This document shows, piece by piece, positions 42,742-63,825 of a DNA stretch of 64,000 bases. This DNA comes from Fibrobacter sp. (lineage in GTDB: Bacteria; Fibrobacterota; Fibrobacteria; Fibrobacterales; Fibrobacteraceae), in the NCBI GenBank assembly GCA_024399015.1, contig JAKSIC010000001.1:558001-622000 (forward strand), given 5' to 3'. Each line of letters starts with the position of its first letter. Position 1 is the stretch's first letter. Under the pieces are notes generated by a model. The model had not been told where the DNA came from, searched no databases, and saw only the letters and a program-made list of their open reading frames with translations. The position numbers were made by a program, and so were the translations under genes.

Positions 42742-43839
42742 TTATTCAGCGGCCATGGTCGAAGCGGGAAGTGTTTCGTCCAGGAAGTTGAAGATGATGT
42801 TGTAGGCGTTGTCGCGAACGGGCTTCTTGGAAAGGACGATATCGTGGAGGGCGCCGGGGATTTCGGCCATGGTGATCTGGGAGCCCAGTCGTGCGCCGTA
42901 GCGCTTGATATCTTCCACGTTGAGGACGCCGTCGCAGCGGGTATATTCGTCGGCCCATTCGTCCTGATCGATGCTGCAGTCGCTATGCATCACGAGGATC
43001 GGGGTGTCCAGCTCCAGGCCCTTCTGCACGAAGGCGTGTGCCTTGTGGATGGCGCGGACCCAGGCGAAGTTCACGGGGATGCTGTTCACGGTCTTGATGG
43101 CGGTATCGAATTCCCATTCGCCGCGGTACTGCTTGAGCAGGCTTTCGGCGTAGTTGGTATTGTCGCCACGGGGAACGCCGAAGCTCGGAAAGAACTGGCC
43201 CAGCACGGAAATGCCCGGGATGACAATCTCGCGAGGAATGAAAGCATAGTTCATTTCAAGGAAGGGACTGTTCAATACCAGGGCGGTAATGCCCTTGCCG
43301 TTTTCTCGGGCAGCGGCATACAAGGTAGCGATCAGACCACCGGTACTATGGCCGATAATTGCCACGGGAGCGTCGGGATGCTGACGCTTCATCTCTGCGA
43401 TACAGGTATCCAGCTCGGCGTAGTATTCGGCGATATCGTGAACTTCACCAATTCGGTCGCCTTCGCGAAGGGAACGGCCATAGTTGTGCAAGTCCACGGC
43501 ATAGAATGCATAGCCTGCAGAGTCAGCCTTCTCGGCCATTTCGCGCTGGAAGTAGTAATCGTTGAATCCGTGAATGTAGAGGACGGAAGCCTTGGGTTCC
43601 GCGGTAGTCGTTGCAGAATCAGCCGTGGCGGAACTGCCGAAGGGATATTCAACGATTGTGGAATGGAAACTGGGGAACTGGGCCACAGGTTCGGTATCGA
43701 AACTGCGCACCTGGAACGGATCACCCAGGAAGGGATCCTTCACAGCGGCATCCCCTGCTACAGCATTTGCCGCCAGCAGGGACAAGCCAAAAATATATAC
43801 CCAATTGCTCACCTTAACCACGGATAAGCAATATAACAA
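42742..43839 (-). CDS. Exported alpha/beta hydrolase (S33/lysophospholipase-like)
   Basis: Serine hydrolase of about 360 residues. An N-terminal hydrophobic segment (SNWVYIFGLSLLAANAVAG) reads as a signal peptide. The fold is shown by VLYIHGFNDYYFQREMAEKADSAGY (oxyanion HG), the nucleophile elbow GHSTGGLIA (catalytic Ser), and LHDIVLSKKPVRDNAYN near the end with a likely catalytic His. Resembles monoacylglycerol lipases; substrate unknown. The start is uncertain: TTG at 43839, or GTG at 43821 or 43812, all with poor ribosome sites. Confidence 0.82.
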   Translation of the reverse strand: MLYCLSVVKVSNWVYIFGLSLLAANAVAGDAAVKDPFLGDPFQVRSFDTEPVAQFPSFHSTIVEYPFGSSATADSATTTAEPKASVLYIHGFNDYYFQREMAEKADSAGYAFYAVDLHNYGRSLREGDRIGEVHDIAEYYAELDTCIAEMKRQHPDAPVAIIGHSTGGLIATLYAAARENGKGITALVLNSPFLEMNYAFIPREIVIPGISVLGQFFPSFGVPRGDNTNYAESLLKQYRGEWEFDTAIKTVNSIPVNFAWVRAIHKAHAFVQKGLELDTPILVMHSDCSIDQDEWADEYTRCDGVLNVEDIKRYGARLGSQITMAEIPGALHDIVLSKKPVRDNAYNIIFNFLDETLPASTMAAE

Positions 43840-46516: not shown

Positions 46517-48100
46517 ATGAATAAAGCCGCCATTATTGTCGCTGTCAGTATGCTCCTCAGCCGCGTGCTGGGAATTTTCCGTGAAATGCTCCTGGCCCAT
46601 GCCGCCGGCGTGTCCCTGGAAAAGAACGCCCTGGACCTCGCCTTCATGATTCCGGACATCCTGAATCACGTGGTCAGCACCGGATTCCTTTCCATCATCT
46701 TCATCCCGATTTTCACCGGCTACAAGGTGGCAGGCGACGAAGAGAAGAGCTGGAAGTTCTTCAGCAACGTACTGAACACCTTCGGCATGGCATTGCTTAT
46801 TCTGGTGGTTCCCGCATTCATCTTCATGCCGGAACTTTTGCAGCTGTTGACTGTGGAAGGCGCCACCCCGGAACTGATTGAACGCGCCACCTACTACGGC
46901 CGCATCATCCTGCCGGGCCAGATTTTCATCTTCGTGGGAAGCATCCTGGTTGCAGTGCAGCACACCCGTAAGCAGTTCCTCATTCCCTCCCTCACCGGCC
47001 TGATCTACAACGTGGCCATCGTGGGCGGCGGCCTCGCAGGTATTCTGCTTGGCAAGCAGAATGGCGTGAACTACGGTCTGGAAGGTTTCGCCTGGGGTGT
47101 TCCCGTCGGCGCGTTCATCGGCTTCTTCGCACTGCAGATTTTTGGCGCAAAGAGGGGTGGCGTAAAATACGAACTCATCTTGCAACCCACTCATCCGGAT
47201 ATCGTTCGCTACTTCAAGATGATGATCCCCATGTCCCTCGGCGTCGGCTCCATGTTCGGTCTTGAATTCATCATCAGAAGCTTCGGCGCCAACTTCGGCA
47301 CCAGCGGTATCTCCAGCCTCAACTACGCCTACCGCGTGATGTACACTCTGGTGGCCGTCTTCGGATTCTCCGTTTCCGTCACCAGCTACCCCGACATGGC
47401 ACGCCTCGTGAAGGAAGGCCAGATCAAGCAGCTGAACGAAAAAATCTGGAAGAGCCTTTCCCGCATGTTCTGCATCTTGATTCCCGCGGTGGTTGCAGTG
47501 TGGGCCCTCTCCTTCCCCGCCGTGCGCATCCTGTTTGAACGCGGTGCCTTCCATCGCGAAACCACGGAAGCCATTACTGAAATTCTCCGCTGGTACTTGC
47601 CCGTTTCTCTGGGCCTTTGCCTCCAGGCAGTTCTCGTGCGCAGCTTCTACGCTGCAGAACGCATGTGGCTCCCCACCCTCCTGAACACAGGCATCTTCGC
47701 ATTGACCATCCCCGCCTACTTGGCGTTGGGCGCACCCCTTGGCATCAAGAGCGTTCCTATCGTAGGCGCTACCGGTGCAATCCTCCAGGTTGTTTCCATG
47801 ATCTTCATGTGGGCCCGTAAGAACGGTACCGACGGTATGAAGGAAGCCTTGATGAACATGGGCCGCGCACTGGTCGCATTCGGCATCATGATCTGTGCCG
47901 CCCTGGGCCTGGACCATGTGACTGGCGAATTTGTCCGTAATACGAACCTGGTGGTTCTCGTTATCTACAGCTGCGTTGCAGGCGTTATTCTGCTTGGCCT
48001 CACCTTGGTGATCCAGAAGCTCCTGGGCAGCAAGGACGCCGGCGACATCCTGAACGAACTTTTAGGCAAGGTGCTGAGAAAGCTGAAGTTGAAGAAGTAA
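46517..48100 (+). CDS. murJ: Lipid II flippase MurJ
   Basis: MurJ moves lipid II across the inner membrane for peptidoglycan synthesis. 527 residues with about 14 helices; MLLSRVLGIFREMLLAHAAGV is the conserved start and RYFKMMIPMSLGVGSMFGLEF and VTSYPDMARLV are typical. The last 61 codons (from 47917) differ from those of a second, partial copy at 63187-63825, while the 455 bases before are identical in both. Confidence 0.93.
   Translation: MNKAAIIVAVSMLLSRVLGIFREMLLAHAAGVSLEKNALDLAFMIPDILNHVVSTGFLSIIFIPIFTGYKVAGDEEKSWKFFSNVLNTFGMALLILVVPAFIFMPELLQLLTVEGATPELIERATYYGRIILPGQIFIFVGSILVAVQHTRKQFLIPSLTGLIYNVAIVGGGLAGILLGKQNGVNYGLEGFAWGVPVGAFIGFFALQIFGAKRGGVKYELILQPTHPDIVRYFKMMIPMSLGVGSMFGLEFIIRSFGANFGTSGISSLNYAYRVMYTLVAVFGFSVSVTSYPDMARLVKEGQIKQLNEKIWKSLSRMFCILIPAVVAVWALSFPAVRILFERGAFHRETTEAITEILRWYLPVSLGLCLQAVLVRSFYAAERMWLPTLLNTGIFALTIPAYLALGAPLGIKSVPIVGATGAILQVVSMIFMWARKNGTDGMKEALMNMGRALVAFGIMICAALGLDHVTGEFVRNTNLVVLVIYSCVAGVILLGLTLVIQKLLGSKDAGDILNELLGKVLRKLKLKK
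47462..47916 (+). repeat. 455-bp direct repeat, left copy (inside murJ)
   Basis: Every base from 47462 to 47916 equals 63187-63641 (constant offset 15725). Beyond its right end the two copies stay aligned without gaps but differ at many third-codon positions. Confidence 0.95.
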
Positions 48101-48658: not shown

Positions 48659-49060
48659 AGAGAGTAATATAAAAAATGCTCCATAAGAATATGAAGCACT
48701 CAAACAATTGGTCACCTCTAAAAAGACATTATTTATCAAAAAAGTCCGTGATTATTCCGGAGTACTTTGAGCCAACAGTCCGGTGCTAGAGAGCCTGTGT
48801 TCCGGAGAAAAAGAGCCTTCGCTATTAACAGCAAATACTTATGCTGGATAAATCCAGAGGTTGTTGTTTATTGCGCTGCGCGATCACAACTTACTGTATT
48901 TGAACAAACAAACGAGCTATAAATAGGTGACTTCACTGGTCCGAAATAGTGGCTCCCATTTTTCCAGACTGTTTCTGCATGCAGAACCTCGCTTAAACAG
49001 CTAAGTGCAATTTAGAAAATTTAATTTTATATGTAAAGCTATTTTTGAGGTTCCAAATTA
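48659..49060. other. Intergenic segment with unexplained mixed-composition block
   Basis: No gene can be called. Between about 48750 and 48995 base composition rises against the AT-rich surroundings. It holds a 14-bp perfect palindrome (TTCTGCATGCAGAA, 48973-48986) and an imperfect inverted repeat around TTGCGCTGCGCGATCACAAC (48860-48890). On the minus strand a frame reads SFVCSNTVSCDRAAQ, stop, then ALFLRNTGSLAPDCWLKVLR, which could be the relic of a gene or a dispersed repeat. Confidence 0.45.
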
Positions 49061-49708
49061 TTAGAATTCGAAATTTTTATCCGGGAAAGCCTTAGAATTT
49101 TGATATTTTGAAAAAATTATATCAACTTTCGTTTCCTTCATATCAACCATCATTGATATCTTCATTGCAGACAATCTTTTCGTACCAGGATCATACTCAA
49201 ATATAATAAGCGTATTCGAGTTATTCGTTATTCGTTCCATTTTAGTAAGTTGTTTCTTTTTCTCATCATAATAGTATGTTGCAGAATCCCCTTCAATTTT
49301 ATAAACGGATTCAGTAAAGAATACAGGTTCCTTCCAATTCCCGTTTTCAAGAGGATTACTACTTGATTCAGGAGTCTGCAAATAACTCATGAATTGAGCA
49401 TTATTCTTAACTATAGTTTCATACTTAGTTTTCAAGTCAATAATCTTAATTCTTTCTCCAAAAACAATCATCCGCTGGCTCAGCAAGGAATTCTTCATTT
49501 CAAAATAAATCTTCTTGGGACCCTTGCGAACATGATAGGATTCCATCGTTTGCATACCGATATCAGGAGATGAAATCGTTGTTGTAAATTTCATCTCGAG
49601 AGAATCTTCACTAATAAATGATTTATTCAATTCTCGATTAACATCTTCCAAAGACAATGCAAAAGAAGTTGAGCATACCATCAAAAAATAAAAAAACAAT
49701 TTTTTCAT
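49061..49708 (-). CDS. LolA-like outer-membrane lipoprotein-sorting protein
   Basis: 215 residues. Signal peptide MKKLFFYFLMVCSTSFA, then a LolA-like pattern: LNKSFISEDSLEMKFTTTISS, KIYFEMKNSLLSQRMIVFGERIKIIDLKTKYETIV, YYDEKKKQLTKMER, FEYDPGTKRLSAMKI. LolA-fold proteins carry lipoproteins or lipids through the periplasm. Family assignment rests on fold-like pattern, not on a strong motif. It is the fourth gene after the giant secreted protein, 14 bases from the barrel gene, so may serve its neighbours rather than general lipoprotein traffic. Confidence 0.65.
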   Translation of the reverse strand: MKKLFFYFLMVCSTSFALSLEDVNRELNKSFISEDSLEMKFTTTISSPDIGMQTMESYHVRKGPKKIYFEMKNSLLSQRMIVFGERIKIIDLKTKYETIVKNNAQFMSYLQTPESSSNPLENGNWKEPVFFTESVYKIEGDSATYYYDEKKKQLTKMERITNNSNTLIIFEYDPGTKRLSAMKISMMVDMKETKVDIIFSKYQNSKAFPDKNFEF

Positions 49709-49722
49709 TTTTTCTCCATTTT

Positions 49723-50307
49723 CTAAAAGATATTATATTGAGCAGAAAGGCCTATGCCGCCCATCAATAGAAATCCGTTGTTTTCCCCATCCCAACTACT
49801 AGCCTCTTGACCAAATCGCCATTTTACCAGATTGTAGTTAGCTGTTAAAGACACCATCAGATTATCCATCACATAATAACCTAATCGGTAACCGTACTTG
49901 GGATAAAACCTTTCCTCGTTAATGAATTCATCTCCAATCTTCTCCTGCATATAATCCGAGAAATTCGTCCCTATAAGCAAATAGGAAAATCCTCCATACA
50001 CTTCAAAATAAAACTTCTTGTAAGTTGCCGACCAGGAAACTAAATTGAAGTCCATCACATAGAGTGACACGCTTTCTTTTCCATCGTCATAAGAGTAGCC
50101 GATTCGACTTAATCCAAAGGACATCTTGTAATCGATGATATTTTGAGGCTCATCAAACATACCGACGCCCAGCGACCAATTCACAATACCTGCGGGTCTG
50201 TAAACTTGATTTTCGTTTTGCAATCGACCGTCTCCAACATTTCCAAATGCATAAAAAGCATTGGCATATACAGTCAAAAAAAAGAGTAAAAGAACTAGAA
50301 TTCGCAC
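49723..50307 (-). CDS. Predicted outer-membrane beta-barrel protein
   Basis: 194 residues. Signal peptide MRILVLLLFFLTVYANA, then alternating strands (YKMSFGLSRIGYSYDD, FYFEVYGGFSYLLIG, YRLGYYVMDNLMVSLTANYNLVKWRFG) ending LLMGGIGLSAQYNIF with terminal Phe, the classic barrel end. The start is GTG (50305-50307) behind AGGGAGGG and overlaps the lipoprotein gene by 13 bases. No named family. Confidence 0.7.
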   Translation of the reverse strand: MRILVLLLFFLTVYANAFYAFGNVGDGRLQNENQVYRPAGIVNWSLGVGMFDEPQNIIDYKMSFGLSRIGYSYDDGKESVSLYVMDFNLVSWSATYKKFYFEVYGGFSYLLIGTNFSDYMQEKIGDEFINEERFYPKYGYRLGYYVMDNLMVSLTANYNLVKWRFGQEASSWDGENNGFLLMGGIGLSAQYNIF

Positions 50308-50735
50308 TGTCCCTCCCTCTTTGTTGAGTAGTCATTACCTCTAATTCCAACTAGTTTGGCAGCCGATGCATCGTGAGAATAGTCAAAGAATCCAACGTTC
50401 TCAATAAAGAATGCCTTTTCTAAATTGCCATCTCTTACAGGTTTTTTGATTTCAACTTCTTTAAAGAAGGATGTATCGCGTTTTAAAACAGTATATTTTC
50501 CATCATCACCCTTTCCATAAGAACGAACGATATGGTGCGCCAAAGAATCTATGCAGAGTTCCTTGCAGACAAGGCCCTCATAGTTATCTAAATACTCTCG
50601 ATAGTAGCAACCTTGTATTTCGTCAATAGACTTCACCACACGATCTGGAGCATAAGACATTCCATGATCTATGTAGGGGCAGCCTACCAGCAAAGAAAAA
50701 GAGGCTGCGAGTAATACAATCTTTCTTTTTTTCAT
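50295..50735 (-). CDS. Small lipoprotein of unknown function
   Basis: 146 residues with type II signal MKKRKIVLLAASFSLLVGC (Cys19). The mature part has several Cys (GCYYREYLD, VCKELCID) and no recognised domain. Lies 6 bases after the giant gene and overlaps the barrel gene by 13 bases, so all are very likely one transcript. Confidence 0.7.
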   Translation of the reverse strand: MKKRKIVLLAASFSLLVGCPYIDHGMSYAPDRVVKSIDEIQGCYYREYLDNYEGLVCKELCIDSLAHHIVRSYGKGDDGKYTVLKRDTSFFKEVEIKKPVRDGNLEKAFFIENVGFFDYSHDASAAKLVGIRGNDYSTKREGQCEF

Positions 50736-50741
50736 AACACT

Positions 50742-53700
50742 CTACTTAATTACAATTCTTGACAAAATCGTCCTTCCACTTCGGAGAACAAGATATTGAC
50801 CAGAAATCAAACTAGCTCTTTCAACGGCAACACTGTGTTCACCAGCAGACCAAATGCCACTGTATAAGATCTTTTGAGTAAGACCAGCAGCATTTACTCG
50901 CTCAAGAACATATTTTCCTGTACTTGGAACAGAAACGACAACTTCCCCGGAACTAATGACAATAAGATCACCATAATCATCATCGCCAGCGATTTCTAAT
51001 AGAGCATTGGCAGGATAGGGAACGCCACCCCAAAGCAAATTACCCTTTTGATCAAGTACAACAATAGAGTCTGCCTGCGCAAAATCGCAAGTCAATCCGT
51101 AATGAGAAGCATCATCAGACGCATTCCAGCCCTGCCAATTGGCATGATGAAGAGCAAACTTAACTCCTGAGCCATAATCCGATTTCTCACCAGGATTCAA
51201 AATTACATCATCATACCTGAAGGATACGTAATACATATCATTGCCCACATCAACCATTTCCACAGTTTCTGCAAATGGATTATTGTACACATCAAATTCA
51301 GGTTTTTCCGTATCATGAATAAAATAGCGAATTTCAAAACCATGAACCGGAATATCGCCAACATTTTCAACAACCATAGAAATCACGCTTGCATCCGTAG
51401 AAGAGCCTCTCTCATCCAATGCCAAAGCACGAACGCTAGGTGTTTTAATCTTTGCAGGACCAGCTCCATCATAGCAATTAAACTTAGAGATTAAGTTACC
51501 ATCTTCATCGAGTACAGCAACCTTATCCGTAATATGGAAGTTTCCATTTACTGCCGCACGATCAAAACTCGGATCATCATCATAATTCCAGAGAGCATTG
51601 TTATTCGTACGATACGCGCCAATTTGAGGGCCATTGCCATAATATGGAGATCCATAAGCTGAAATAGTCTCAGTCAACTGGAGTTCTGTATAGAAAACAT
51701 TTCCTGCATCAGCATAAACACCCATATTCACATTTGGATAGAACGCTCTTGCGGATACAAGATAATCTTCACCACTGTAATAGTAGCGCAACTTCACATC
51801 TTTAAGTTCCTTATCTGAGATATTCCTAAGACGGAAGTTTGCACGAAGCCAACTCTTATCTGAGTATGAGGGGTAGGCCACTTCCACCTGAACCTTAGGA
51901 TCAGGAATACTCCATTCATCTTCATTCCAAGAAATCATAGATGCGGGAACATGACTTTCGCTATTTGCAATAGCAAATGCGGCAACTCCAGTATATCCCA
52001 CAGGCTTAATCGTGATATTATGTTCCCCTGTAGAGAGGTTCATGGTTACATCATCAATCATTTGAGATAGCCATACACCAGAACCCTTAACATCATGGAT
52101 TCCCCTGAAAGAACCATCAACAAACACTTCAATAGAGGACGTCAATCCATCATACCCGCGCGCAAGTACAAACAAATCATACCTACCAGCAACAGTATAA
52201 ACGTTCCAATTCACAGAACCCGATAAATCAGGGCTCTTTGAGCGCAAATATGACATGCCTGCTAAATCACAAGATTGGTCAACAATAATATCATTTCTTT
52301 CCTGCAAATCAACAGCACGAACAATCTCAATATTCGCCTCAACAGCATCTACAGGCCCTCGATAAAGATCCATTACCTCATCTTCAGAAAGTTCATTCCT
52401 AAAGAATCGAATATTTGATATGCGAGCATTTATAGACTTGTAGTTATCAACAGAACCTACAATCGGCTTACCCTTTGTATCCCAAATAAATTCGCTGAAC
52501 AGAGTCTTATTTTCAACCAAAACGCCATCTCTGTAAAGTCGAATATTTCGGCCATCCACCGTCAACACATAATGAGTTTCAACCCCTCGTTTTACCAGCG
52601 CATTGTCAAATAAAATTTTACGACCATCATATTCAAAGAACAAATCACGTACATTCTCTAATCCAATAAGCCAGTTCTTTGATCCGTTCCAACCAAGAAT
52701 TGAGAATTCCGTTCCTTCACGAGAAACATTTGATCTCAATTTAAATTCTACACTCATCGGAACAGAGCCAATACCGCTCCAAGCATCCTTAGGTTTTGCA
52801 ACATCTGTAATTGAACTAAAGAACAAAGCTGTACCATAATACCAGGGATTCTTCATTCCAAGATTCAGATCAACACCAGTATTGGTAGCTTCCTTAGCTA
52901 TATTACCAGCCCCATCAGCAAGAGGATACCAAAGAACCAAAGATTTCGGGAAAGGATAAATATTCTCGCTAGACAGAGTCGTCTTTACGTTGTTATGGCC
53001 ATAGTCATAAACAGTCATAACAGCTTCAAACTTACATCCAACACATTCACTTAACATCTTCTTTGTAAGTAAGAATTCTTCTGCAACAGTAGTAGAACCC
53101 GTTTGCACACGACGTTCAATTTTCTTGCCCGCCCAATGGAAATCCATTACAACAGAATCAATCCCACTTTCAGAATCAGAGAGAACCGCGTCCACAGTAA
53201 TCCGTTTTTGCAATTCATAATCCGCAACTTCAATTGACGCATCTTCAATCATAGGCAAGGTTTTATCCGTATAGACAATCGGTCCTGCAATTTGCAAACT
53301 CTTTCCATTGCTGCCATAAAGAGACAATCGAGAATCCAAGGCGTCCTTGTACGACACATTAGTTTGAATGTCAGTCTTTCGTATATTCCAGATAATTCCA
53401 CCATCAGCAAGCCCCTGGTGTTCAGCAATAGCAGAGCCATCTTTTCGAAGCTGGAGCATATAATTACTTTCGCCTATACACGGATACGGATAGTTTAAGT
53501 AACCATTCACTAAGCCAGCCCATAAAGTAGTTTCAATATAAGACTTTCCATCCTCACATGCGAAGTCAGGAACAATCTTATTATCTTCAGAAGGCTTGAC
53601 CAATGCAGCCTGTTCTTCATCCATCAGCATAAACACAGAGAATGTCGGAGTCTTACCAGAAACACGAATAGCATCCCATTCATCATTTTTGGGCTTAACA

Positions 53701-56700
53701 CAAATAGTACCACTTGAATCACCACAAGTGTAAACCAAGTCCCCAGCAAAATAGAAACCCAATTCCTGAACTTCCAAAGGAACAATTGTTTTTTCCTTGT
53801 AGTTTGGCTTATAGATTTTCACATCCAGAGGATCTTGATTGCCCAAAGACTCCTTCGTGACTTCAATTGATACTCGAGGCCACAAATCCTTATCACTCTG
53901 ATTAAACACATGAGAAGGCAAAACTTCAACAATGGTTCCCACGGGATACAAGCCGTCAAATACGGTATAATCATAATCACCCATACTAGCCACACGAACC
54001 GTCACATCAGTCTTCGATTCAAAAGCGTTTGCCGGAAATTGGACAGATACATTTCCATACATGGACTTCACAAGTTTCTTTTCGCTAGGATCTAGCAATT
54101 CACCAATGTGTACATCCAATTGCTTATAGTAAACATCACCACCAGCATCATCCAAACCATAAGTCAAGAAGAAACTGGTATTGCCCTGTAGGGTGTTTAC
54201 ATCAATTTCTTTTACAATCTTATAGGAATCTCTTGATTCTAATTCAGAAGTTGCACTTGACGCAATCGGGACCATTCTGTTTCCAGATAGATAAGACAGG
54301 GTCCAGTGGGTCGCGTTGCCAGGAACGTTGCCAAGTAATGTGACTATTTCGCTAACACGTTCTGCAGGTACCGTAGAACTACGAATTACCTTTACATTCT
54401 CAGAATTTTCCGAAAGTTTAGCGTTAAAGAATTCATGTTCATTATTATTGCGATCGAAAATCATAAGATTCGAAAGAGCAAACTGCTTCGTCCAATCATC
54501 ATCCTTGAAAATGTCTGATTCGTTTTGAGCAGCAATTCTATCCTTCTCAATCGTCTCAGGCACATCAGCACGAAGATTATTATCATCCAAAGGCTTATGA
54601 TCGTTTGAACGTATATAGTTGACACTGAGTGTTTCAACCTGGCCTTCGTTTTCAACGATACCATCGTCATTCATATGCCAGCCATTTTCTACAGATTCTT
54701 GAGACAGAACCAGCTCTGAATGCAGTTCAGACTGAAGAGGGTTCTCAAAATCCGAATTCAACTCATCCGTTTCGCGAATAGAGTTCATATCAATAGTCCA
54801 AACACTATTTTCATAAGACAAGTCTTCGACCTTAGAAGTTAGATAAGTCATTTCCTGGGTGTTTTTTCCCCACGCCTTAGACAAATCCCCAAACAGATTC
54901 ATGGAACTCATAGGATTCATCGGAGATGCGTACATCGGATTATTGAAGTACGTCACATCATCAGATGCCCCAAAATGATTAATCCACTGTTCATCAGTCC
55001 AATCCTGTTTACCATAATGAATTCTAGATGCAGCATGATAATACATAAAGCAATGGGTGCTCTGATCATCAAACTTACTCATATCCTCGGTGATATCACA
55101 AAGCACGTCATGACCCATACCATCAGGAATATACTTGTCATCAGGCGCAACATAGGGGAATGCCACTTGCTGATTAGAATGATATCGTGCAGCTTGTTTC
55201 ATTGGAACTCGTGCCGTCACATAAAAATCAATTGGAGCATTTAACCATGCATCAATATTTGAAGACGATCCAACGAACTTAGCTTTCATATCGCTAGTAA
55301 TTACTTCAGCAATAGGCGTTCCATTTTGGAGCGTACCGATGGCCGTGGCAATAAAATCAACTTTCTTTCCGTATTTATTTGCATCATACTTATCTTCATG
55401 GTCAACGCCCATGAATCCAAACTCATACTTCGAAGGAACCAGCTTAACAGCAGCAGTTGAAACTTCATCCGAGAACAATAACGGATTACCCTTCAGCAAT
55501 TCATTTTCATTAAAGAAGTAGCGTTGTACTTCAAATGGAGTGACCATACCATAATATTTATTATACATCCATTTTTCACCATCGTAATAATTTTTCACAG
55601 AATTATTAGGCGACGTAGCTTGAACATAATATCCCCGAATTGCATCATACAAAGTTTTATTTGTATGGTCAAAACGAACATATTTATTCGCCAAATTACT
55701 ATATCCAAATTCAGGATTCCAATACTTATCATTTACAGTAAACGTCACCTTTGCAAAGATTTCTGTTGCACTTTTGTGATTATCACAATTACCGAACCAA
55801 TGGGAACAATCAAAATCATCGTTTCCAAAGAATTCTTCACCATCAACATGTTCTATCGAAACAGATAGCATATTTTCATGGGGATTAAAAGATTCCGTTT
55901 GTTCGCACACATAATCATTTGCTTCTGAAGGAGTACAGCCATCTGTAACAGCCCCCTTATTTCCGTCCAATTTCTTATCTGCAGATTTATACTTAAAGAT
56001 TTTATTATAATCCCATAGTTTAATGGTTGGGTGATCAGTAGTAGAATAATTCGCATTAAAATCACTTGACTGTGCAGAAACGGTAAAACCTTCCTTTGTT
56101 TCCGACTGCTTTCCCCAAGCTTCACAATAAGAAACACTTTCACCACCTATCTTTGATTTAATGAACTCATAGTCTTCAATAGCAAAAACTTTTGCATCAA
56201 AGTTAATGTCATATTGGACATTTTCATCTTCATTCCATCCAATAAGATGGTCTGTATTATCACCAGAAGAAACAGATAGTTTCGGTATCACAAAAGAACC
56301 GCCATATTCATCTTCGTCAAAAGTGACCTTGCGCACAGTAATACTATTCTTCAAGCATTTGTTCTGCGGATCGTACTTATAATCAAGATAGTACTGCGTA
56401 GAGCTCAAACGCGTAACCAAAGTGACAGGGAACGACTTTCTATGACGACGAATACCCAAGCTAAATCTATTTGCTCGATAGAATGCGGGATACTGTTCAC
56501 CCTTCCAATCCCAATAATACTTGAATGTTCGTTTTCCTTCTGGTAAAATCCGGGCTTTAGCATCCATTGTCAAACGATAATCAGCTCTACCAACAAATCG
56601 ATATTCATCATTTTCTTTACTAGCCTCTTCCATCTTTAACTCTGCTGCAGAGGAATTCGGATCTCTTCCGTTAGAAGCCGCAATCAAATGACCTGCATGA

Positions 56701-59700
56701 ATAATGTCAAACTTGTAAATCCTCGGGACGGCCTTGTTACCATCTTCGTCAATGGCAGTCACTTCAAAATAGTAACGTCCAGCATCAACTTTGGCAAAAT
56801 TTCCATCAGAAATTCCATTCCAAGTGACTACATGAGCATTTTTCTTTGCACTGGCATAGCAGGGTTGACTATTCATTAAAGTCGCAATGACCCGTCCATC
56901 TGAATTCTTTACAGTTACTGTTACATTTGCATTCCGACCAGCAAGCCCAAATTCATAACCAATTTCACTTAACCTCAACAACTCATTTTGCTGATTGTCT
57001 TCAGTTGAAACAACAAATTGTCCAATATCATCCTCAGAATAATTTGAAATAATCTCAGGGGCACCCACAGCAAGAAGCATCGGAACCTCGGCGGTTACAA
57101 CTCGAGAACCAGGCTGCTTCTCCGTTGCAATAGCAACTACCTTAACCTTAGGAGTGCTAGGATACATTCCACCAGTAATCAGGCCATTCCACGGGAAATC
57201 CATCTTGAAGGAATTGATATCCACATAAACTTCAGAGAACGGGAAATCGGTAAGTTTTTCATTCTGTATAGAAGACAACAACATTGGAAAATACTTACTA
57301 CAAAGATTTCCAGATGAACCACAATACAATTTACTATTCACATCTTTTACAGAGGATAAATCAATGATAAATGGTTCAGAGGACTTAAATTTCAATTCAA
57401 AATCTTTTTTTCCATCCAACTTCCATTCACTCGTATAATTATAGGCAGGCTTACGACCGTAACCTACGTCTAATTCTGGCGCAAAGTGATTCGGATCATC
57501 CGCGTTATAGAAAACTTCCTTATCCGCAGCAACTGCATTTACAAATTCCAATCCAGAATGCGTATAATGCATCACTAACGAAGGTACATCATACAAACTA
57601 TTAGACACAAGAACATCATTTACCTTAATGGTCCAAAGATCTCCTTCCTGCCAAATCGAAACCCCCTGGGGCAACGTTGCAGTTGCTGATCCTCCAAAGG
57701 GAGAAATAATCATGCTATCTAGATACTTTTGATCAGCAACAATCATTCGTGTAGCATCATAAGGATCGGATGCGTAAATTTTCATATCCATGGTCCATTC
57801 GCTACCATCGTTAACACCGAGTAATTCACCAGTTATGCCCCCCATCTCATTGCCACCAGGAACAAGACCATCTACAGGAACACTCAAACGAATTGTTGGC
57901 TTTTCTTGTTTTTCATCAATATCAACCAATTTGATTGTTTCTATCTCGCTTTCAACCCAACTACACTTGGGATTTTCTTTTTCTCTACAACCACGAACGG
58001 ACAATAATAGCTCGTACGTTCCGGCAGACAATGAAGAACGATCCCAAATGGCAAGATCATTTACCATAGTACTGGCAATCTTTTTTGTAGACTGAATTCC
58101 ATCTGTTTTCCACTCCGTAGAACCAGCGCTGCGCCACTGAATCATATATTCAGCAGTTTGAACATTACCATCAGGCACGACGGGATTTGGAGCAATACCA
58201 GAAATTCGAATTATATCGTTAGCTATGCCACCATCCGCAGCAGTGGGATATGTCAACACAGGATATCTAAATCCAACGCTAAAAGGTTCACTACTACGAC
58301 TAAAATTTCCAGCACCATCGAAACAACCAACTATTGCAGTATAGCGGCCATTTGCAATATCAATAGAAGCGCTCTTCAAGGAGTAATCAGTAGAAACTTT
58401 TTTGCCAGCAACCATTTTATCAGCAGAAACATTTCCAATAAACACCCATTCACTAGCATTTAATCCATTAGTGATTTTCTGATAGCATGTGAAGTCGCTT
58501 CTATTAACTTCTATTTCAGAAGAAGAAACAGTAAACGTAGCAGCATCAACATCTTCTGCAGAAGCATACACAGGCTCTGCAGGCATTACACTATTGACAA
58601 CAGGAGCAGTTCTTGCAATACGAGCAATCTTATGCAAGTCAATGTTGCCAGAAGAATTTCCAGCTGCATCGGTAAGATTTACAACTACAGAATATTTTCC
58701 ATCAGTAAGTCTCGTAGCAGAAGGTTCTTCAAACGTATATTTCGAATTGACCTTAAAATCATGATAAGCAACAAACGTCTTGGTCAAAGACCGATCTGTA
58801 TCAATAAACATTACCTGAATTCTAACACTATCATGTTCTGCTGTAGAAGTCTCCCCCTTCAAAGAGAAGGAAAGTTGCACAGACTCTGAAGCATTAACAA
58901 CTGTTTCGTCACTAGACGGACGAGTATAAGTCGGGCAATCAGAACATGGTGATGCAAATGCTAGCGCAACAACATCTATGCTATTTTTATCTATAGAAGG
59001 ATCTTCACTATCAATATAAATATCTTTCTGCAGGGTCACACCATTAATTCCCGGTTCAAAAGTAACACCGTCATCCCCAAGAAGACCTCTCCAAGCTCCA
59101 TTAGCAACATCGGCATCGCTTGAATACAGATCTTGCAGAATAATCCCCATTTTTACGCTCGGTTCAGCGTAGTCCATAGATTGAATATACACAGTTGACT
59201 TTCCTTGAGGTAAAGTCTCCATGTCGAGATTCCAACCCAAATTAATTTCAGATACACCTGTACCATTAAGTTTTTTCACCCATATCGTGTCATCAGAACC
59301 TTCAGGAATAGCAAAGATACGAGTTGCTCTAAGAGATGAATTATCCTTATTGATAATCTTAGCCCAGGAACCATCCTTTATCTTATTTGTAATCTGCTTT
59401 TCAGGAAAAACCAACTCAAAATCAGGCTTCTTTTTGTCTAGAATAACAGACACATTCATGTTATACGGAGTTACATTTCCCGTTACATCCTTTGCCTTCA
59501 GTTTCCACTGGATAATGTATTCTCCATCATCCAATGTCTTTACCAGTTCATCACCAAAATGAGCCTCCATGTACCAATTTTGATCAAAGCTACCAGTCTG
59601 CGGAATGACTGTTGCAGGAACACAATCATTCAAGGCAGGAGTATACTGACCATTAGCAGACTTGATAAGACAAACTTCTGCACTTGTAAACACATACGGA

Positions 59701-62700
59701 TCACCCTGATTACTTGCAGTGATATACATATCCTTCAAGGAAGATACTGTTTGCAGATATGTCGGCCAGCCTTCCTTCAACAGAGGAAGTGTTGCCTGGA
59801 AATAGAATGAGAACTGTTGTGCAGCCACCATTCCCATCGCATTTGTCAAAGTCGCAGTTACAAGATTCGGTCCTTCAGGTTGCAGTTTATTGGGGAAGAA
59901 CTTCTTATTATCATCCGTTATCTTGGAATTGGCTAACTCAATCAAACGCATCGGGCGCAAAACAAACAATCCCATTTCATTAACCGGAGATTCTTCACCC
60001 TGTTCGATGTATACACGATCTCTTCCATTTCGTTCAATGTATGAATTCCAAGTATTGTCAGAATTTCTTTCAAAGAAAATCTGAACATCCATATTAAAGT
60101 CAAGTGCGATACTCCAAAGTAAATCAGGGCGTAAATCTTCAATTTGGAATCGATACTCTTCAACAAAATTTTGCATGACGATATTAGGCAAGTTATACCT
60201 AGTTATACGTCTAGTAATAGTTCCGTTCTCATCCTTTTTGAAGGAATCACCTCTCAAAGACAGAGAGTAATAATCTTCTGAAGTAACTAATTTCTTTTCC
60301 TTTAAATTTTGAACGTCACTTAAATGATCATATACAGATTCAATCTCAAACCCTTCATCGGAACCATTATTCTTTATATATTTTTGACGATATACCTGTT
60401 CCAAGCTATTATAATCAACAATTTCAGGAACTTCATGATCGGCACCGCTGACAGCCTTAAGCATCAAAGGAATATACTTATCACCCTCTTCAGAATGATG
60501 AACAACCATCTGCAAATTCATATACGGCTTTTCAAACATCAACATATCCATATCCGTATACGTAAATAGTCTGTTGGCTCCACTATGAAGTTTAACAGAA
60601 CCATCATTTATACCTTGAACAGATGATTTTAAAGATAACCCTGCAGATTTCTTCAATACATCAATATTATGGAACATAACCGATGTATTAACATTCTGAC
60701 CTACAATAATACCAGTATTCACCGATAACTGCGCAACCTTGCATGCTGGTGAAAAGCTTTTAGGGACCAAATCACATGCGGATCCCATAACTTGATCAAT
60801 CAGCTTACGATTAGCTTCAACAGCGCCTCCCACAAGTAACTGCGCCTTGAAAGTATTGTAATCCGAATATTCGTCATCCTGCTGCATCGTATGCAACGGA
60901 TACGCCATTCGTTTTACATCGGTAGCAGCAAACAGAGCTACGTTTCCACCATATGCACTATGCGACGGAACATCATATGTTCCTTCATCAAAAAAATTAA
61001 CGGAATAATTAACCAAACGTTGGGCAAAATCCTTATGACCCGTAGCAACACAATTCTCTGCAGTAAAACGATCCTCATCCTTAAGTTTGTAAATATTTTT
61101 AGCCAAATCTAAGGTATTTAGAATATTTAATGGATTAAGGGAAAAATCGCCCAGTTTACAATCTTCCGAACCCACCTCCATACCTTTATAACTTGGAGCA
61201 TAAGAGCTCATAAATGAAGATACAAATTGTTCTGTAACCTGTTGAGGAGCAAGTTCCGCAATTGCAGAGATAAAGGTGACCAACCAATTAGGCATATCAT
61301 CGATTACCCCTCCAAGATCAATCCATTCTAACAAGGCCCCAACACCATAGTCTACAGCAAAATCAACTAATTTTTCTACTGCAAATTGTGATGCCCCCTC
61401 CAATATTTGTTTCGACAAATGCTTCGTATCTACATACTGAAGCAAATCTAATGCCCAATCGGCCGCACTGGGTAAGTATCGCGCATATAAATCTAGTGAT
61501 TCAAGATCTTTTACCTTATCCCTTAAATATTCATTTAATTGGAAGATATATGCATCAACAATATCTTGTTTGATACCCAAAGTATCCAACAAAAACGTAC
61601 TTATAGCTTTTGAATACACTGTCTTAATATTTTCATTAAGACGTTTCTTGTCTACGTGATATTTTTTTTGAAAAAGATAATCTGCACGCGTACGACGACC
61701 GTTACCAATAGTCGGCATACCGTAGGAATACATGATTCGGTACATAGGACTATCATAAGATGAAAGCATTCCATAGGCATTCAACATCTGCGTTCTACCA
61801 ATCAATGTATCAATCTTCGCAGAGTTTGCTTGTCCACGAATGTAATTGTACAATAAATCTCTTTTATCTGCATCTTGAGAAGAATACCACAATGCCCCAT
61901 CTTTTTCATTATAAAAACCAAAATATTCATCATTCATATTGTTACTAGCAACTAAATTGGAGCCTGCGTTAACAATATTCATGATATTTTTTATCATGGG
62001 CACATAAAACTTTGAAACTGTCTTTGAATCAGAAAATGTGTACAAAAATGTAATCAGCGGAATTATTGTTGCCAAAAAAGATCCTGATATATCATGCTTC
62101 ATAAAATTCTTGTCTTTCGACAATAACGCATGATCCGCAAAACCAGTACCCTCATGTGGAGTGTCTGCAAACAGAATTTTGTCAACATCACCATTGTAAT
62201 CAACACTTTGAATGTATTCTCGAGCCACCATACCGCCCATACCATTAGCAATAAACACATATCTAGTAGGTAAAAAATCAGGACGAGCCTCCTTGAGGTC
62301 CGTCAGCGTTGGCATTTTGTTATTTTTGTTTTTAAAATTTTTTATCCAAGCGTATAAAAATGGATCAATATTTGCAAATTCTACAGAATACTGAGATTTG
62401 GGAATATACTTACCAGCAGTTCCATCCCAAGCATTTCTTGTCTTTTGTAAACTCACCATTTCAGAGGATTTCGTAGGCAACGCCATTTCCGATTCGTTTA
62501 GCACATCAGCAAACCAGTGTCCTAAAGCTTCATCAACAATAGAACTCAATTGCATCTTTTCGCCATCTTGCTGAATAATGGAATGTGTTTGAGCATCATA
62601 AATAGACTGCTTTTCACGGCAGTTTACGGTTTGCAACATATTATTATGTCCAGCCAATTCCGAAATCATTGCAGAAGGAGCTGCTGAAGGATTTTTGTAG

Positions 62701-62948
62701 GATCTGGAATAAATATTCGCCTTTGTATTGGCAACATTTTCCTGGAGATATTTCGCAACACCAGTCTTGCCCCAAATTTCGCTATTTTCATAGTGATTAC
62801 AGTAGTCTTCAAGAAGACCCATATTTGACGGATTCATTCCATCAAGCAAAATGAATAGGGTAGATTTGGCCGGCTCCATAGGAGTACCAAAACCAAAAGA
62901 AACTGCGGAAATGACAACAAGCAAAAGCTTACATACGGATGCACGCAT
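50742..62948 (-). CDS. Giant secreted protein, 4068 residues, degenerate lipase domain and type IX-like tail
   Basis: Begins with a signal peptide (MRASVCKLLLVVISAVSFGFG). Residues 30-300 resemble a PGAP1/lipase alpha/beta hydrolase, YVFIANGMGGMVAREYIQ followed by ADTPHEGTGFAD, but the nucleophile motif GHSMGG reads ANGMGG (Ser replaced by Gly236) and the oxyanion HG reads LLDGMNP, so it is probably inactive. The middle is long, beta-rich and Ig-like, with a FlgD-type unit near 2000-2080 (VDAGRYYFEVTAIDEDGN). Near the end come a LamG-like domain (about 3336-3525), a carbohydrate-binding-like segment (3530-3650), two CBM3-like stretches (3675-3985; SDKELKDVKLRYYYSGEDY) and a tail (GKYVLERVNAAGLTQKI...SGQYLVLRSG) like type IX secretion sorting domains. 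Domain names are from pattern only. Ribosome site GGAGG precedes the ATG. Codon use is AT-rich. First gene of a four-gene operon. Confidence 0.85.
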   Translation of the reverse strand: MRASVCKLLLVVISAVSFGFGTPMEPAKSTLFILLDGMNPSNMGLLEDYCNHYENSEIWGKTGVAKYLQENVANTKANIYSRSYKNPSAAPSAMISELAGHNNMLQTVNCREKQSIYDAQTHSIIQQDGEKMQLSSIVDEALGHWFADVLNESEMALPTKSSEMVSLQKTRNAWDGTAGKYIPKSQYSVEFANIDPFLYAWIKNFKNKNNKMPTLTDLKEARPDFLPTRYVFIANGMGGMVAREYIQSVDYNGDVDKILFADTPHEGTGFADHALLSKDKNFMKHDISGSFLATIIPLITFLYTFSDSKTVSKFYVPMIKNIMNIVNAGSNLVASNNMNDEYFGFYNEKDGALWYSSQDADKRDLLYNYIRGQANSAKIDTLIGRTQMLNAYGMLSSYDSPMYRIMYSYGMPTIGNGRRTRADYLFQKKYHVDKKRLNENIKTVYSKAISTFLLDTLGIKQDIVDAYIFQLNEYLRDKVKDLESLDLYARYLPSAADWALDLLQYVDTKHLSKQILEGASQFAVEKLVDFAVDYGVGALLEWIDLGGVIDDMPNWLVTFISAIAELAPQQVTEQFVSSFMSSYAPSYKGMEVGSEDCKLGDFSLNPLNILNTLDLAKNIYKLKDEDRFTAENCVATGHKDFAQRLVNYSVNFFDEGTYDVPSHSAYGGNVALFAATDVKRMAYPLHTMQQDDEYSDYNTFKAQLLVGGAVEANRKLIDQVMGSACDLVPKSFSPACKVAQLSVNTGIIVGQNVNTSVMFHNIDVLKKSAGLSLKSSVQGINDGSVKLHSGANRLFTYTDMDMLMFEKPYMNLQMVVHHSEEGDKYIPLMLKAVSGADHEVPEIVDYNSLEQVYRQKYIKNNGSDEGFEIESVYDHLSDVQNLKEKKLVTSEDYYSLSLRGDSFKKDENGTITRRITRYNLPNIVMQNFVEEYRFQIEDLRPDLLWSIALDFNMDVQIFFERNSDNTWNSYIERNGRDRVYIEQGEESPVNEMGLFVLRPMRLIELANSKITDDNKKFFPNKLQPEGPNLVTATLTNAMGMVAAQQFSFYFQATLPLLKEGWPTYLQTVSSLKDMYITASNQGDPYVFTSAEVCLIKSANGQYTPALNDCVPATVIPQTGSFDQNWYMEAHFGDELVKTLDDGEYIIQWKLKAKDVTGNVTPYNMNVSVILDKKKPDFELVFPEKQITNKIKDGSWAKIINKDNSSLRATRIFAIPEGSDDTIWVKKLNGTGVSEINLGWNLDMETLPQGKSTVYIQSMDYAEPSVKMGIILQDLYSSDADVANGAWRGLLGDDGVTFEPGINGVTLQKDIYIDSEDPSIDKNSIDVVALAFASPCSDCPTYTRPSSDETVVNASESVQLSFSLKGETSTAEHDSVRIQVMFIDTDRSLTKTFVAYHDFKVNSKYTFEEPSATRLTDGKYSVVVNLTDAAGNSSGNIDLHKIARIARTAPVVNSVMPAEPVYASAEDVDAATFTVSSSEIEVNRSDFTCYQKITNGLNASEWVFIGNVSADKMVAGKKVSTDYSLKSASIDIANGRYTAIVGCFDGAGNFSRSSEPFSVGFRYPVLTYPTAADGGIANDIIRISGIAPNPVVPDGNVQTAEYMIQWRSAGSTEWKTDGIQSTKKIASTMVNDLAIWDRSSLSAGTYELLLSVRGCREKENPKCSWVESEIETIKLVDIDEKQEKPTIRLSVPVDGLVPGGNEMGGITGELLGVNDGSEWTMDMKIYASDPYDATRMIVADQKYLDSMIISPFGGSATATLPQGVSIWQEGDLWTIKVNDVLVSNSLYDVPSLVMHYTHSGLEFVNAVAADKEVFYNADDPNHFAPELDVGYGRKPAYNYTSEWKLDGKKDFELKFKSSEPFIIDLSSVKDVNSKLYCGSSGNLCSKYFPMLLSSIQNEKLTDFPFSEVYVDINSFKMDFPWNGLITGGMYPSTPKVKVVAIATEKQPGSRVVTAEVPMLLAVGAPEIISNYSEDDIGQFVVSTEDNQQNELLRLSEIGYEFGLAGRNANVTVTVKNSDGRVIATLMNSQPCYASAKKNAHVVTWNGISDGNFAKVDAGRYYFEVTAIDEDGNKAVPRIYKFDIIHAGHLIAASNGRDPNSSAAELKMEEASKENDEYRFVGRADYRLTMDAKARILPEGKRTFKYYWDWKGEQYPAFYRANRFSLGIRRHRKSFPVTLVTRLSSTQYYLDYKYDPQNKCLKNSITVRKVTFDEDEYGGSFVIPKLSVSSGDNTDHLIGWNEDENVQYDINFDAKVFAIEDYEFIKSKIGGESVSYCEAWGKQSETKEGFTVSAQSSDFNANYSTTDHPTIKLWDYNKIFKYKSADKKLDGNKGAVTDGCTPSEANDYVCEQTESFNPHENMLSVSIEHVDGEEFFGNDDFDCSHWFGNCDNHKSATEIFAKVTFTVNDKYWNPEFGYSNLANKYVRFDHTNKTLYDAIRGYYVQATSPNNSVKNYYDGEKWMYNKYYGMVTPFEVQRYFFNENELLKGNPLLFSDEVSTAAVKLVPSKYEFGFMGVDHEDKYDANKYGKKVDFIATAIGTLQNGTPIAEVITSDMKAKFVGSSSNIDAWLNAPIDFYVTARVPMKQAARYHSNQQVAFPYVAPDDKYIPDGMGHDVLCDITEDMSKFDDQSTHCFMYYHAASRIHYGKQDWTDEQWINHFGASDDVTYFNNPMYASPMNPMSSMNLFGDLSKAWGKNTQEMTYLTSKVEDLSYENSVWTIDMNSIRETDELNSDFENPLQSELHSELVLSQESVENGWHMNDDGIVENEGQVETLSVNYIRSNDHKPLDDNNLRADVPETIEKDRIAAQNESDIFKDDDWTKQFALSNLMIFDRNNNEHEFFNAKLSENSENVKVIRSSTVPAERVSEIVTLLGNVPGNATHWTLSYLSGNRMVPIASSATSELESRDSYKIVKEIDVNTLQGNTSFFLTYGLDDAGGDVYYKQLDVHIGELLDPSEKKLVKSMYGNVSVQFPANAFESKTDVTVRVASMGDYDYTVFDGLYPVGTIVEVLPSHVFNQSDKDLWPRVSIEVTKESLGNQDPLDVKIYKPNYKEKTIVPLEVQELGFYFAGDLVYTCGDSSGTICVKPKNDEWDAIRVSGKTPTFSVFMLMDEEQAALVKPSEDNKIVPDFACEDGKSYIETTLWAGLVNGYLNYPYPCIGESNYMLQLRKDGSAIAEHQGLADGGIIWNIRKTDIQTNVSYKDALDSRLSLYGSNGKSLQIAGPIVYTDKTLPMIEDASIEVADYELQKRITVDAVLSDSESGIDSVVMDFHWAGKKIERRVQTGSTTVAEEFLLTKKMLSECVGCKFEAVMTVYDYGHNNVKTTLSSENIYPFPKSLVLWYPLADGAGNIAKEATNTGVDLNLGMKNPWYYGTALFFSSITDVAKPKDAWSGIGSVPMSVEFKLRSNVSREGTEFSILGWNGSKNWLIGLENVRDLFFEYDGRKILFDNALVKRGVETHYVLTVDGRNIRLYRDGVLVENKTLFSEFIWDTKGKPIVGSVDNYKSINARISNIRFFRNELSEDEVMDLYRGPVDAVEANIEIVRAVDLQERNDIIVDQSCDLAGMSYLRSKSPDLSGSVNWNVYTVAGRYDLFVLARGYDGLTSSIEVFVDGSFRGIHDVKGSGVWLSQMIDDVTMNLSTGEHNITIKPVGYTGVAAFAIANSESHVPASMISWNEDEWSIPDPKVQVEVAYPSYSDKSWLRANFRLRNISDKELKDVKLRYYYSGEDYLVSARAFYPNVNMGVYADAGNVFYTELQLTETISAYGSPYYGNGPQIGAYRTNNNALWNYDDDPSFDRAAVNGNFHITDKVAVLDEDGNLISKFNCYDGAGPAKIKTPSVRALALDERGSSTDASVISMVVENVGDIPVHGFEIRYFIHDTEKPEFDVYNNPFAETVEMVDVGNDMYYVSFRYDDVILNPGEKSDYGSGVKFALHHANWQGWNASDDASHYGLTCDFAQADSIVVLDQKGNLLWGGVPYPANALLEIAGDDDYGDLIVISSGEVVVSVPSTGKYVLERVNAAGLTQKILYSGIWSAGEHSVAVERASLISGQYLVLRSGRTILSRIVIK

Positions 62949-62978
62949 AACCCTCTAACCTCCAAAATTTTGCGACGA

Positions 62979-63005
62979 AATATAAAAATAAAAAACACAT
63001 GTCAA
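62979..63005 (-). promoter_or_regulatory. Promoter candidate for the giant-protein operon
   Basis: TTGACA (63000-63005) and TATATT (62979-62984) on the minus strand; spacing is 15 bases, shorter than ideal. The leader is about 25-30 bases with a GGAGG ribosome site. Confidence 0.4.
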
Positions 63006-63186
63006 CACATCATCAACCTTTTATCCCCGTTTTTTTTTGTTTTTAAAACACATATTTTCTAGCATTTTCAACGAACGTCATACAATCGCAGTATTTTGTA
63101 TGACAAAAGTTTTTTACATTGAAAAAACTACTCTTCATAGCCGTTATACGGATTAATAGACTTACGCAGGGGACCACCTACCTAGT

Positions 63187-63641
63187 CGCATGTTCTGCAT
63201 CTTGATTCCCGCGGTGGTTGCAGTGTGGGCCCTCTCCTTCCCCGCCGTGCGCATCCTGTTTGAACGCGGTGCCTTCCATCGCGAAACCACGGAAGCCATT
63301 ACTGAAATTCTCCGCTGGTACTTGCCCGTTTCTCTGGGCCTTTGCCTCCAGGCAGTTCTCGTGCGCAGCTTCTACGCTGCAGAACGCATGTGGCTCCCCA
63401 CCCTCCTGAACACAGGCATCTTCGCATTGACCATCCCCGCCTACTTGGCGTTGGGCGCACCCCTTGGCATCAAGAGCGTTCCTATCGTAGGCGCTACCGG
63501 TGCAATCCTCCAGGTTGTTTCCATGATCTTCATGTGGGCCCGTAAGAACGGTACCGACGGTATGAAGGAAGCCTTGATGAACATGGGCCGCGCACTGGTC
63601 GCATTCGGCATCATGATCTGTGCCGCCCTGGGCCTGGACCA
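63187..63641 (+). repeat. 455-bp direct repeat, right copy
   Basis: Identical to 47462-47916 base for base. Left of 63187 the sequence has no similarity to murJ, so the copy starts abruptly inside the gene. Confidence 0.95.
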
Positions 63642-63825
63642 CGTTACCGGCGAATTCGTCCGCAGCACAAGCCTTGTGGTCCTCGTGATCTACAGCTGTA
63701 TTGCAGGCGTAATCCTTCTGGCAGCCACCCTCTTCATCCAAAAGCTCTTGGGCAGCAAGGATGCAGGCGACATCCTGAACGAACTCCTTGGCAAGGTCCT
63801 GAGAAAGCTCCACCTGAAGAAATAA
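63187..63825 (+). pseudogene. 3' fragment of murJ
   Basis: Corresponds to about residues 317-527 of MurJ (first ATG inside is 63190). The N-terminal 60 percent is missing, so it cannot make a working flippase. Residues up to about 467 equal those of the intact gene; the last 61 differ at several places (for example STSLVV against NTNLVV, AATLFIQ against GLTLVIQ). No promoter or ribosome site was recognised in front. Confidence 0.9.

Follow-up and report, generated by a model that had tools for sequence, protein, structure and literature searches.

Secreted lipases of families I.1, I.2 and I.5 and the PGAP1/palmitoyl-thioesterase-like group (PF07819, PF02089) have in common the alpha/beta-hydrolase fold. 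In the cholinesterase-like adhesion proteins of animals, a hydrolase domain that is dead still serves as a head for recognition or adhesion. Neuroligins, neurotactin and gliotactin are of this kind, with altered catalytic triads and roles in adhesion and recognition (PMC8387733). In the T6SS Tle/Tli pairs a lipase stands beside an envelope lipoprotein or a periplasmic partner, and polymorphic toxin loci of the CDI and Rhs types carry orphan cassettes (PMC3482391). As for Fibrobacter succinogenes, involvement of the T9SS has been proposed (PMC6851124), and CBM1, CBM2 and CBM3 modules were found on 0 of 31 cellulases of strain S85 (PMC3079729).

The window, a stretch of 64,000 nucleotides from the genome (3.34 Mb, 99.9% complete) of a Fibrobacter that degrades fibre in the gut, encodes a giant protein that can be compared with all of these. 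It belongs to a clade, here called class B, whose active sisters (class A) have the lipase signature GHSMGG...SPH. The head of the window giant has the fold of the secreted lipases, but it carries Gly for the nucleophile Ser and DG for the oxyanion HG, its clade has lost the catalytic His, and it contains a large helical insertion and rides on a 4,000-residue chain that is putatively displayed at the surface. The likeness to neuroligin-type proteins lies in the dead hydrolase head; lineage and architecture are unrelated, and adhesion by the window giant is presumed. Class A resembles the Tle/Tli pairs in placing a lipase beside a lipoprotein, but its lipase, not a T6SS effector, forms the N-terminal part of a giant whose tail is type IX-like, and its partner is propeller-like, while the window giant is dead and without a partner gene. 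Only class A shares with CDI and Rhs a variable active domain, a paired small gene and displaced cassettes near the full-length gene; unlike in those systems, the variable domain and the cassettes are N-terminal and the partner lies upstream (a reversed polarity), the tail is T9SS-like and toxicity is putative. Set against the toxin and immunity features of CDI and Rhs, the window giant has a dead domain and no adjacent co-diversifying immunity-like gene. Its family shares two tandem CBM3-like modules with CBM3-bearing cellulose-binding proteins, but the giant is non-catalytic. The kinds of component (lipase fold, LamG, CBM3, T9SS tail, dead hydrolases as adhesion heads) are thus already known; a literature search found no paper on this combination, on the constrained dead clade or on the cassette-bearing active clade. 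The analysis adds to an earlier note on the sequence that the loss of Ser marks an old, constrained clade, that its active sisters go together with a lipoprotein gene in cassette arrays, and that the gene lies in a low-GC block at murJ.

The giant protein and its lipase-like head

The giant is encoded on the minus strand by an uninterrupted open frame of 4,068 codons (62948 to 50742), which agrees with the earlier note in length and position, and full-length relatives are colinear with it at about 30% identity from end to end. By eye, a basic n-region and a hydrophobic core mark residues 1-21 (MRASVCKLLLVVISAVSFGFG; 62886-62948, minus strand, as are all features of the giant) as a putative signal peptide. 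A pseudo-lipase domain with a helical insertion follows at residues 24-760 (60669-62879). Against Pfam PGAP1 the window giant scored 15 bits (E 0.021), below the cut-off of 24.3 bits, whereas its class A sisters reached 29-45 bits (E down to 2e-11); a family profile of the head matched lipases of the B. glumae (Burkholderia) type with E 8e-6.

An AlphaFold2 model of residues 24-760, made from an alignment of 51 homologous N-domains (mean pLDDT 76, pTM 0.79, core strands above 90), has the layout of an alpha/beta-hydrolase. In it, Gly236 is placed between beta5 and the next helix, which is the nucleophile elbow, and the final strand and helix of the fold come at about residues 678-727, past the large helical insertion, which was itself modelled with low confidence. 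The lipase layout proposed in the earlier note is therefore borne out by the model, but not its end at residue 300, the domain being about twice longer. Foldseek searches of the PDB with the head gave family I.5, I.1 and I.2 lipases as top matches (probability 0.98 and E 0.011 for the best, no match with E below 0.001); the matches also included a T6SS lipase effector, Tle4 in its complex with Tli4 (4r1d). VIA-align yielded a Z of 11.9 for the lipase BlEst2 (rmsd 2.9, 197 residues) and of about 10 for LCAT, PlaB and others. The resemblance is not due to chance: the active relatives match PGAP1, the family profile matches lipases and the modelled layout fits. Going by the model, the nearest solved structures are the family I.1, I.2 and I.5 lipases, and the label PGAP1 suits the active sisters.

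The nucleophile slot falls on Gly236 (62241-62243), within residues 231-247 (VFIANGMGGMVAREYIQ); Ser occupies it in all of the class A (49) and outgroup (3) sequences. At its elbow the window giant holds no Ser, Cys or Asp, and no G-x-S-x-G motif occurs in this protein upstream of residue 1430, where the first one stands, far beyond the head. Asp36-Gly37 (62838-62843, within LLDGMN, residues 34-39) takes the place of the oxyanion His-Gly, and DTPHEGTGFAD (residues 262-272; 62133-62165) is kept in both clades, all three at the positions first given for them. The proposal of a dead hydrolase is likewise upheld: the fold is that of an alpha/beta-hydrolase, the model puts Gly236 at the elbow and no second Ser as nucleophile, and the nucleophile and His columns are lost in the clade. 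Sequence and model thus support an alpha/beta-hydrolase fold whose catalytic centre has been lost.

For the rest of the protein an Ig/LamG/CBM3-like chain had been suggested. Two of its members were found above the Pfam cut-offs, an Ig-like Big_13 domain at residues 1372-1434 (58647-58835; E 2.9e-7) and a LamG-type lectin-like domain at residues 3402-3525 (52374-52745; Laminin_G_3, E 7.3e-10, 39.6 bits with a cut-off of 27.6); a FlgD_ig-like match at residues 1996-2067 (56748-56963; E 3.1e-5) was slightly below. The CBM3 part stands at the family level: Pfam CBM_3 was matched by 12 of 13 family members, the window giant alone being under the cut-off (E 0.0038), and the family profile of residues 3640-3965 (51054-52031) matched CBM3 structures in two separate stretches (E 6.1e-6 and 1.2e-5), as expected of two tandem modules. 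Scanning 37 genomes of the genus for CBM_3 gave five matches only, two of them within giants. In the C-terminal region the LamG domain is thus confirmed in the window giant itself; the two CBM3-like modules, with predicted cellulose binding, have their support mainly from the family.

At the C-terminus a type IX-like tail had been expected. For the last 99 residues (50745-51041) no direct match was found in Pfam and NCBIfam, TIGR04183 included; the profile of the family tails, searched in the same genome, matched the ends of three other proteins that are also TIGR04183-positive, and in hhalign it matched 20 TIGR04183 tails of that genome with E 2.9e-4 and 40% probability. The tail is thus probably a type IX sorting tail of divergent sequence. 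The source genome has T9SS machinery and other cargo, namely SprA (SprA_N, E 8e-22) and about 35 TIGR04183 tails above the cut-off.

Neighbours and an inserted block at murJ

On the minus strand, the giant gene is immediately followed by that of a 146-residue lipoprotein with the lipobox LLVGC (50295-50735; no family match), and beyond it by genes for an exported protein of 194 residues (49723-50307; no usable match in Pfam or NCBIfam) and a LolA-like protein of 215 residues (49061-49708). Among PDB profiles the last gave a weak match to the LolA-superfamily entry 3buu (E 0.15); its gene family recurs at giant loci and is conserved downstream of both class A and class B giants. Searching with PADLOC returned nothing beyond one stray weak match. 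At two other loci (L037:16448-20000 and L068:5107-7814), the DNA downstream of the class B giant contains an incomplete second copy of its C-terminal region, together with Fib_succ_major lipoproteins and a second LolA-like gene.

A complete murJ (46517-48100, plus strand) borders this group of genes on the left, and a copy of its 3' part (639 nt; 63187-63825, plus strand) borders it on the right, 93.9% identical overall and 100% over the first 300 nt. The gene that lies beyond the murJ copy has homologues in three relatives, where they stand within a few kb after murJ. From the copied end and these near-murJ homologues, the block 48740-63186 seems to have been inserted where murJ ends, with duplication of this end. 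Its GC content is 0.385, that of the window's first 46 kb 0.506; this difference and the patchy distribution of the giants suggest an origin in another strain. The possibility that murJ is a hot spot of insertion for the whole family was rejected, as none of the other giant loci read sits at murJ.

Dead and active clades

Colinear giants of about 3,600-4,100 residues occur in Fibrobacter and beyond, across Fibrobacterota, the N-domain being present in 18 of the 37 genus genomes searched. The class A motifs read VHGA...GHSMGG...DSPHEGTG...SH. Ser stands in the nucleophile column in 49/49 class A and 3/3 outgroup sequences, whereas class B has Gly in 15 of 16 and Asp in one. His is kept in its column by 35 of 36 class A and all three outgroup sequences, but by only one of the 12 class B rows that have no gap at this column, the window giant itself being gapped. 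In the N-domain tree the class B rows, 14 when a class A fragment truncated at the end of its contig (L097:2-1720) is left aside, form a single clade (SH-aLRT 99), and in the tree of the C-terminal 1,000 residues class B makes up one side of a branch with support 93.

Within class B the active site has eroded in a graded manner. A sequence from lake Fibrobacteres (L078) reads HDMGG, with Asp at the nucleophile position and the oxyanion HG retained; the window giant and a termite sequence (L073) read NGMGG with DG; most Fibrobacter members read EGVAG or DGAAG. The L078 giant (L078:4753-16150) may be an intermediate or an enzyme with an Asp nucleophile. Despite the lost active site, REY and TPHEGTG around the former pocket are invariant. 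The dead domain has a dN/dS of 0.083-0.092 in four close class B pairs, a value that comes from relatives of the window giant, whose own nearest relative is only 37% identical in the N-domain; in these close relatives the domain is under strong purifying selection, and thus of use. Judged from the alignments, the class B head is a pseudoenzyme kept by selection and not a product of decay. Nor is class B merely the partner of an active copy, since class B genes occur without class A in some genomes, the source of the window giant among them. One class B giant (L041:4505-15976, genome G009) is interrupted past residue 751, either by a stop or by a frameshift, which may be an assembly error.

Class A giants differ from class B in their upstream neighbour. 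A gene of one lipoprotein family lies directly upstream on the same strand of 42 of 48 class A frames, mostly with a gap of less than 40 bp, compared with 1 of 15 in class B (Fisher p 1.4e-8, in a test that takes loci as independent, while class B is one clade with perhaps one or a few losses). Among the six class A frames that lack it, three carry a divergent lipoprotein gene at that place. No such paired gene was found upstream of the giant at the window locus, and L073 combines a dead lipase with retained lipoproteins. Divergence of the class A lipoproteins follows that of the lipases (Mantel r 0.83, 37 pairs), and shuffling partners within a locus breaks the correlation (p 0.0025); with a mean identity of 30%, as against 49% for its lipase, the lipoprotein is the more variable of the two. 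Its lipobox Cys is invariant. No usable match was obtained in Pfam or NCBIfam, and none was found by profile search of the PDB. The modelled structure (pLDDT 83) is all-beta and propeller-like, with a Foldseek E of 4e-5 to a propeller and VIA Z values below 8, which would define the general fold only. A role as helical foldase of the Lif type is disfavoured, the model being all-beta. The lipoprotein may be an immunity protein; we keep this as a hypothesis because linkage alone could yield the correlation. At several class A loci, arrays of lipoprotein and truncated lipase genes (lipases of 210-310, 420-430 or 755-803 residues) lie upstream of the lipoprotein and giant pair. Such arrays were seen at L043, L044, L092, L096, L098 and L117; they resemble displaced cassettes, with the lipase motif intact.

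What the dead head may do

The reading we prefer, at a probability of about 0.5, is that the window giant is a surface protein exported by the T9SS, with a disarmed lipase as binding head and LamG and CBM3-like modules that grip fibre or glycans. Sec would export the giant, and the T9SS would then route it to the cell surface by means of its tail. The head would descend from an active secreted lipase, the whole clade having lost the catalytic Ser and then the oxyanion residue and the His, while the fold and the motifs near the old pocket (REYIQ, TPHEGTG) were retained for binding or recognition. The long Ig-like chain would keep the head at a distance from the cell, and the C-terminally placed LamG and CBM3-like modules, at the base of this stalk, would hold plant fibre or neighbouring glycans. 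Surface display, adhesion and the binding of a ligand by the dead pocket are what we infer from these features.

The main alternative, possible though doubtful, is that the head is a former weapon. Class A giants would be surface lipase toxins with lipid-anchored propeller immunity and N-terminal cassettes, and class B, having lost both toxicity and the immunity gene, would act as a decoy, receptor or kin-recognition protein among competing bacteria and not in adhesion to fibre. The upstream lipoprotein genes of class A and their near absence from class B, the divergent genes in half of the exceptions, the joint divergence of a lipase and a still more variable partner, the invariant lipobox Cys on a propeller-like all-beta fold, the cassette arrays and the T6SS effector among the fold matches are all consistent with it. 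However, paired genes would co-vary by linkage alone, the Fisher test counts as many events what may be one or a few losses in a single clade, and L073 is dead with its lipoproteins still present; moreover, the toxicity of class A is putative, and the CBM3 and LamG modules point to fibre. A broader version takes in both clades, and we put it forward tentatively: the giants may constitute a type IX-delivered, contact-range family of weapons of Fibrobacterota, in which class A would combine a lipase toxin at the N-terminus with a beta-propeller immunity protein, lipid-anchored and encoded just upstream, with upstream stores of displaced N-terminal cassettes and with a cellulose-gripping chain, and the window giant represents an ancient disarmed branch, without catalysis and immunity gene, kept as a surface receptor or adhesin.

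That the dead domain binds nothing, and is only a structural cap or a module for secretion and folding that the rest of the chain needs, seems unlikely. Such a role would suit a fold and flanking motifs that persist while the active site erodes stepwise from L078 through the window giant and L073 to the others, but it does not call for the invariance of REY and TPHEGTG near the former pocket under a dN/dS of 0.08-0.09. Asp serves as nucleophile in some alpha/beta-hydrolases, and the Asp and the retained HG of L078 would allow for a hidden enzyme that uses another nucleophile or a cofactor; as 15 of 16 class B sequences have Gly, 11 of 12 are without the His and the elbow of the window giant holds no Ser, Cys or Asp, this is highly improbable. 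Hardly any weight is left for a decaying, pseudogene-like leftover. The low GC and seemingly foreign nature of the block, its broken murJ copy and the L041 relative split after residue 751 might suggest one; against it stand 4,068 open codons and colinear full-length relatives, and the dN/dS below 0.1 in relatives led us to reject it.

On the preferred reading as a binding head, the window giant would offer a clear example, from bacteria, of a lipase that became a conserved pseudoenzyme and now heads a giant surface fibre; graded intermediates and active sisters are available for comparison. Its CBM3-like modules would also bear on how this genus holds on to crystalline cellulose, given that no CBM1, CBM2 or CBM3 was seen on the S85 cellulases (PMC3079729). 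The class A loci in turn point to an undescribed lipase-lipoprotein cassette system tied to a type IX-like tail, and F. intestinalis ATCC 43854, which is in culture, has both clades.

Further lipase-like proteins were seen in the course of the analysis. A third group of lipase-headed giants, an active one (L106, L114, L124; 3,000-5,700 residues, HSMGGLTTRDY) reaches Fibrimonadaceae, two of the group having a LolA-like gene and a lipoprotein upstream. The genome of the window giant also encodes a 1,215-residue lipase-like protein (L002, G000:C1:275164-278361) with an intact motif of the GHSQGG type (AHSQGG) and DTPH, related to DUF7379 and palmitoyl thioesterases. The window also encodes, at a distance of 7 kb from the giant, another secreted alpha/beta-hydrolase (365 residues; 42742-43839, minus strand), which has an intact GHSTGG and scores above the PGAP1 cut-off.
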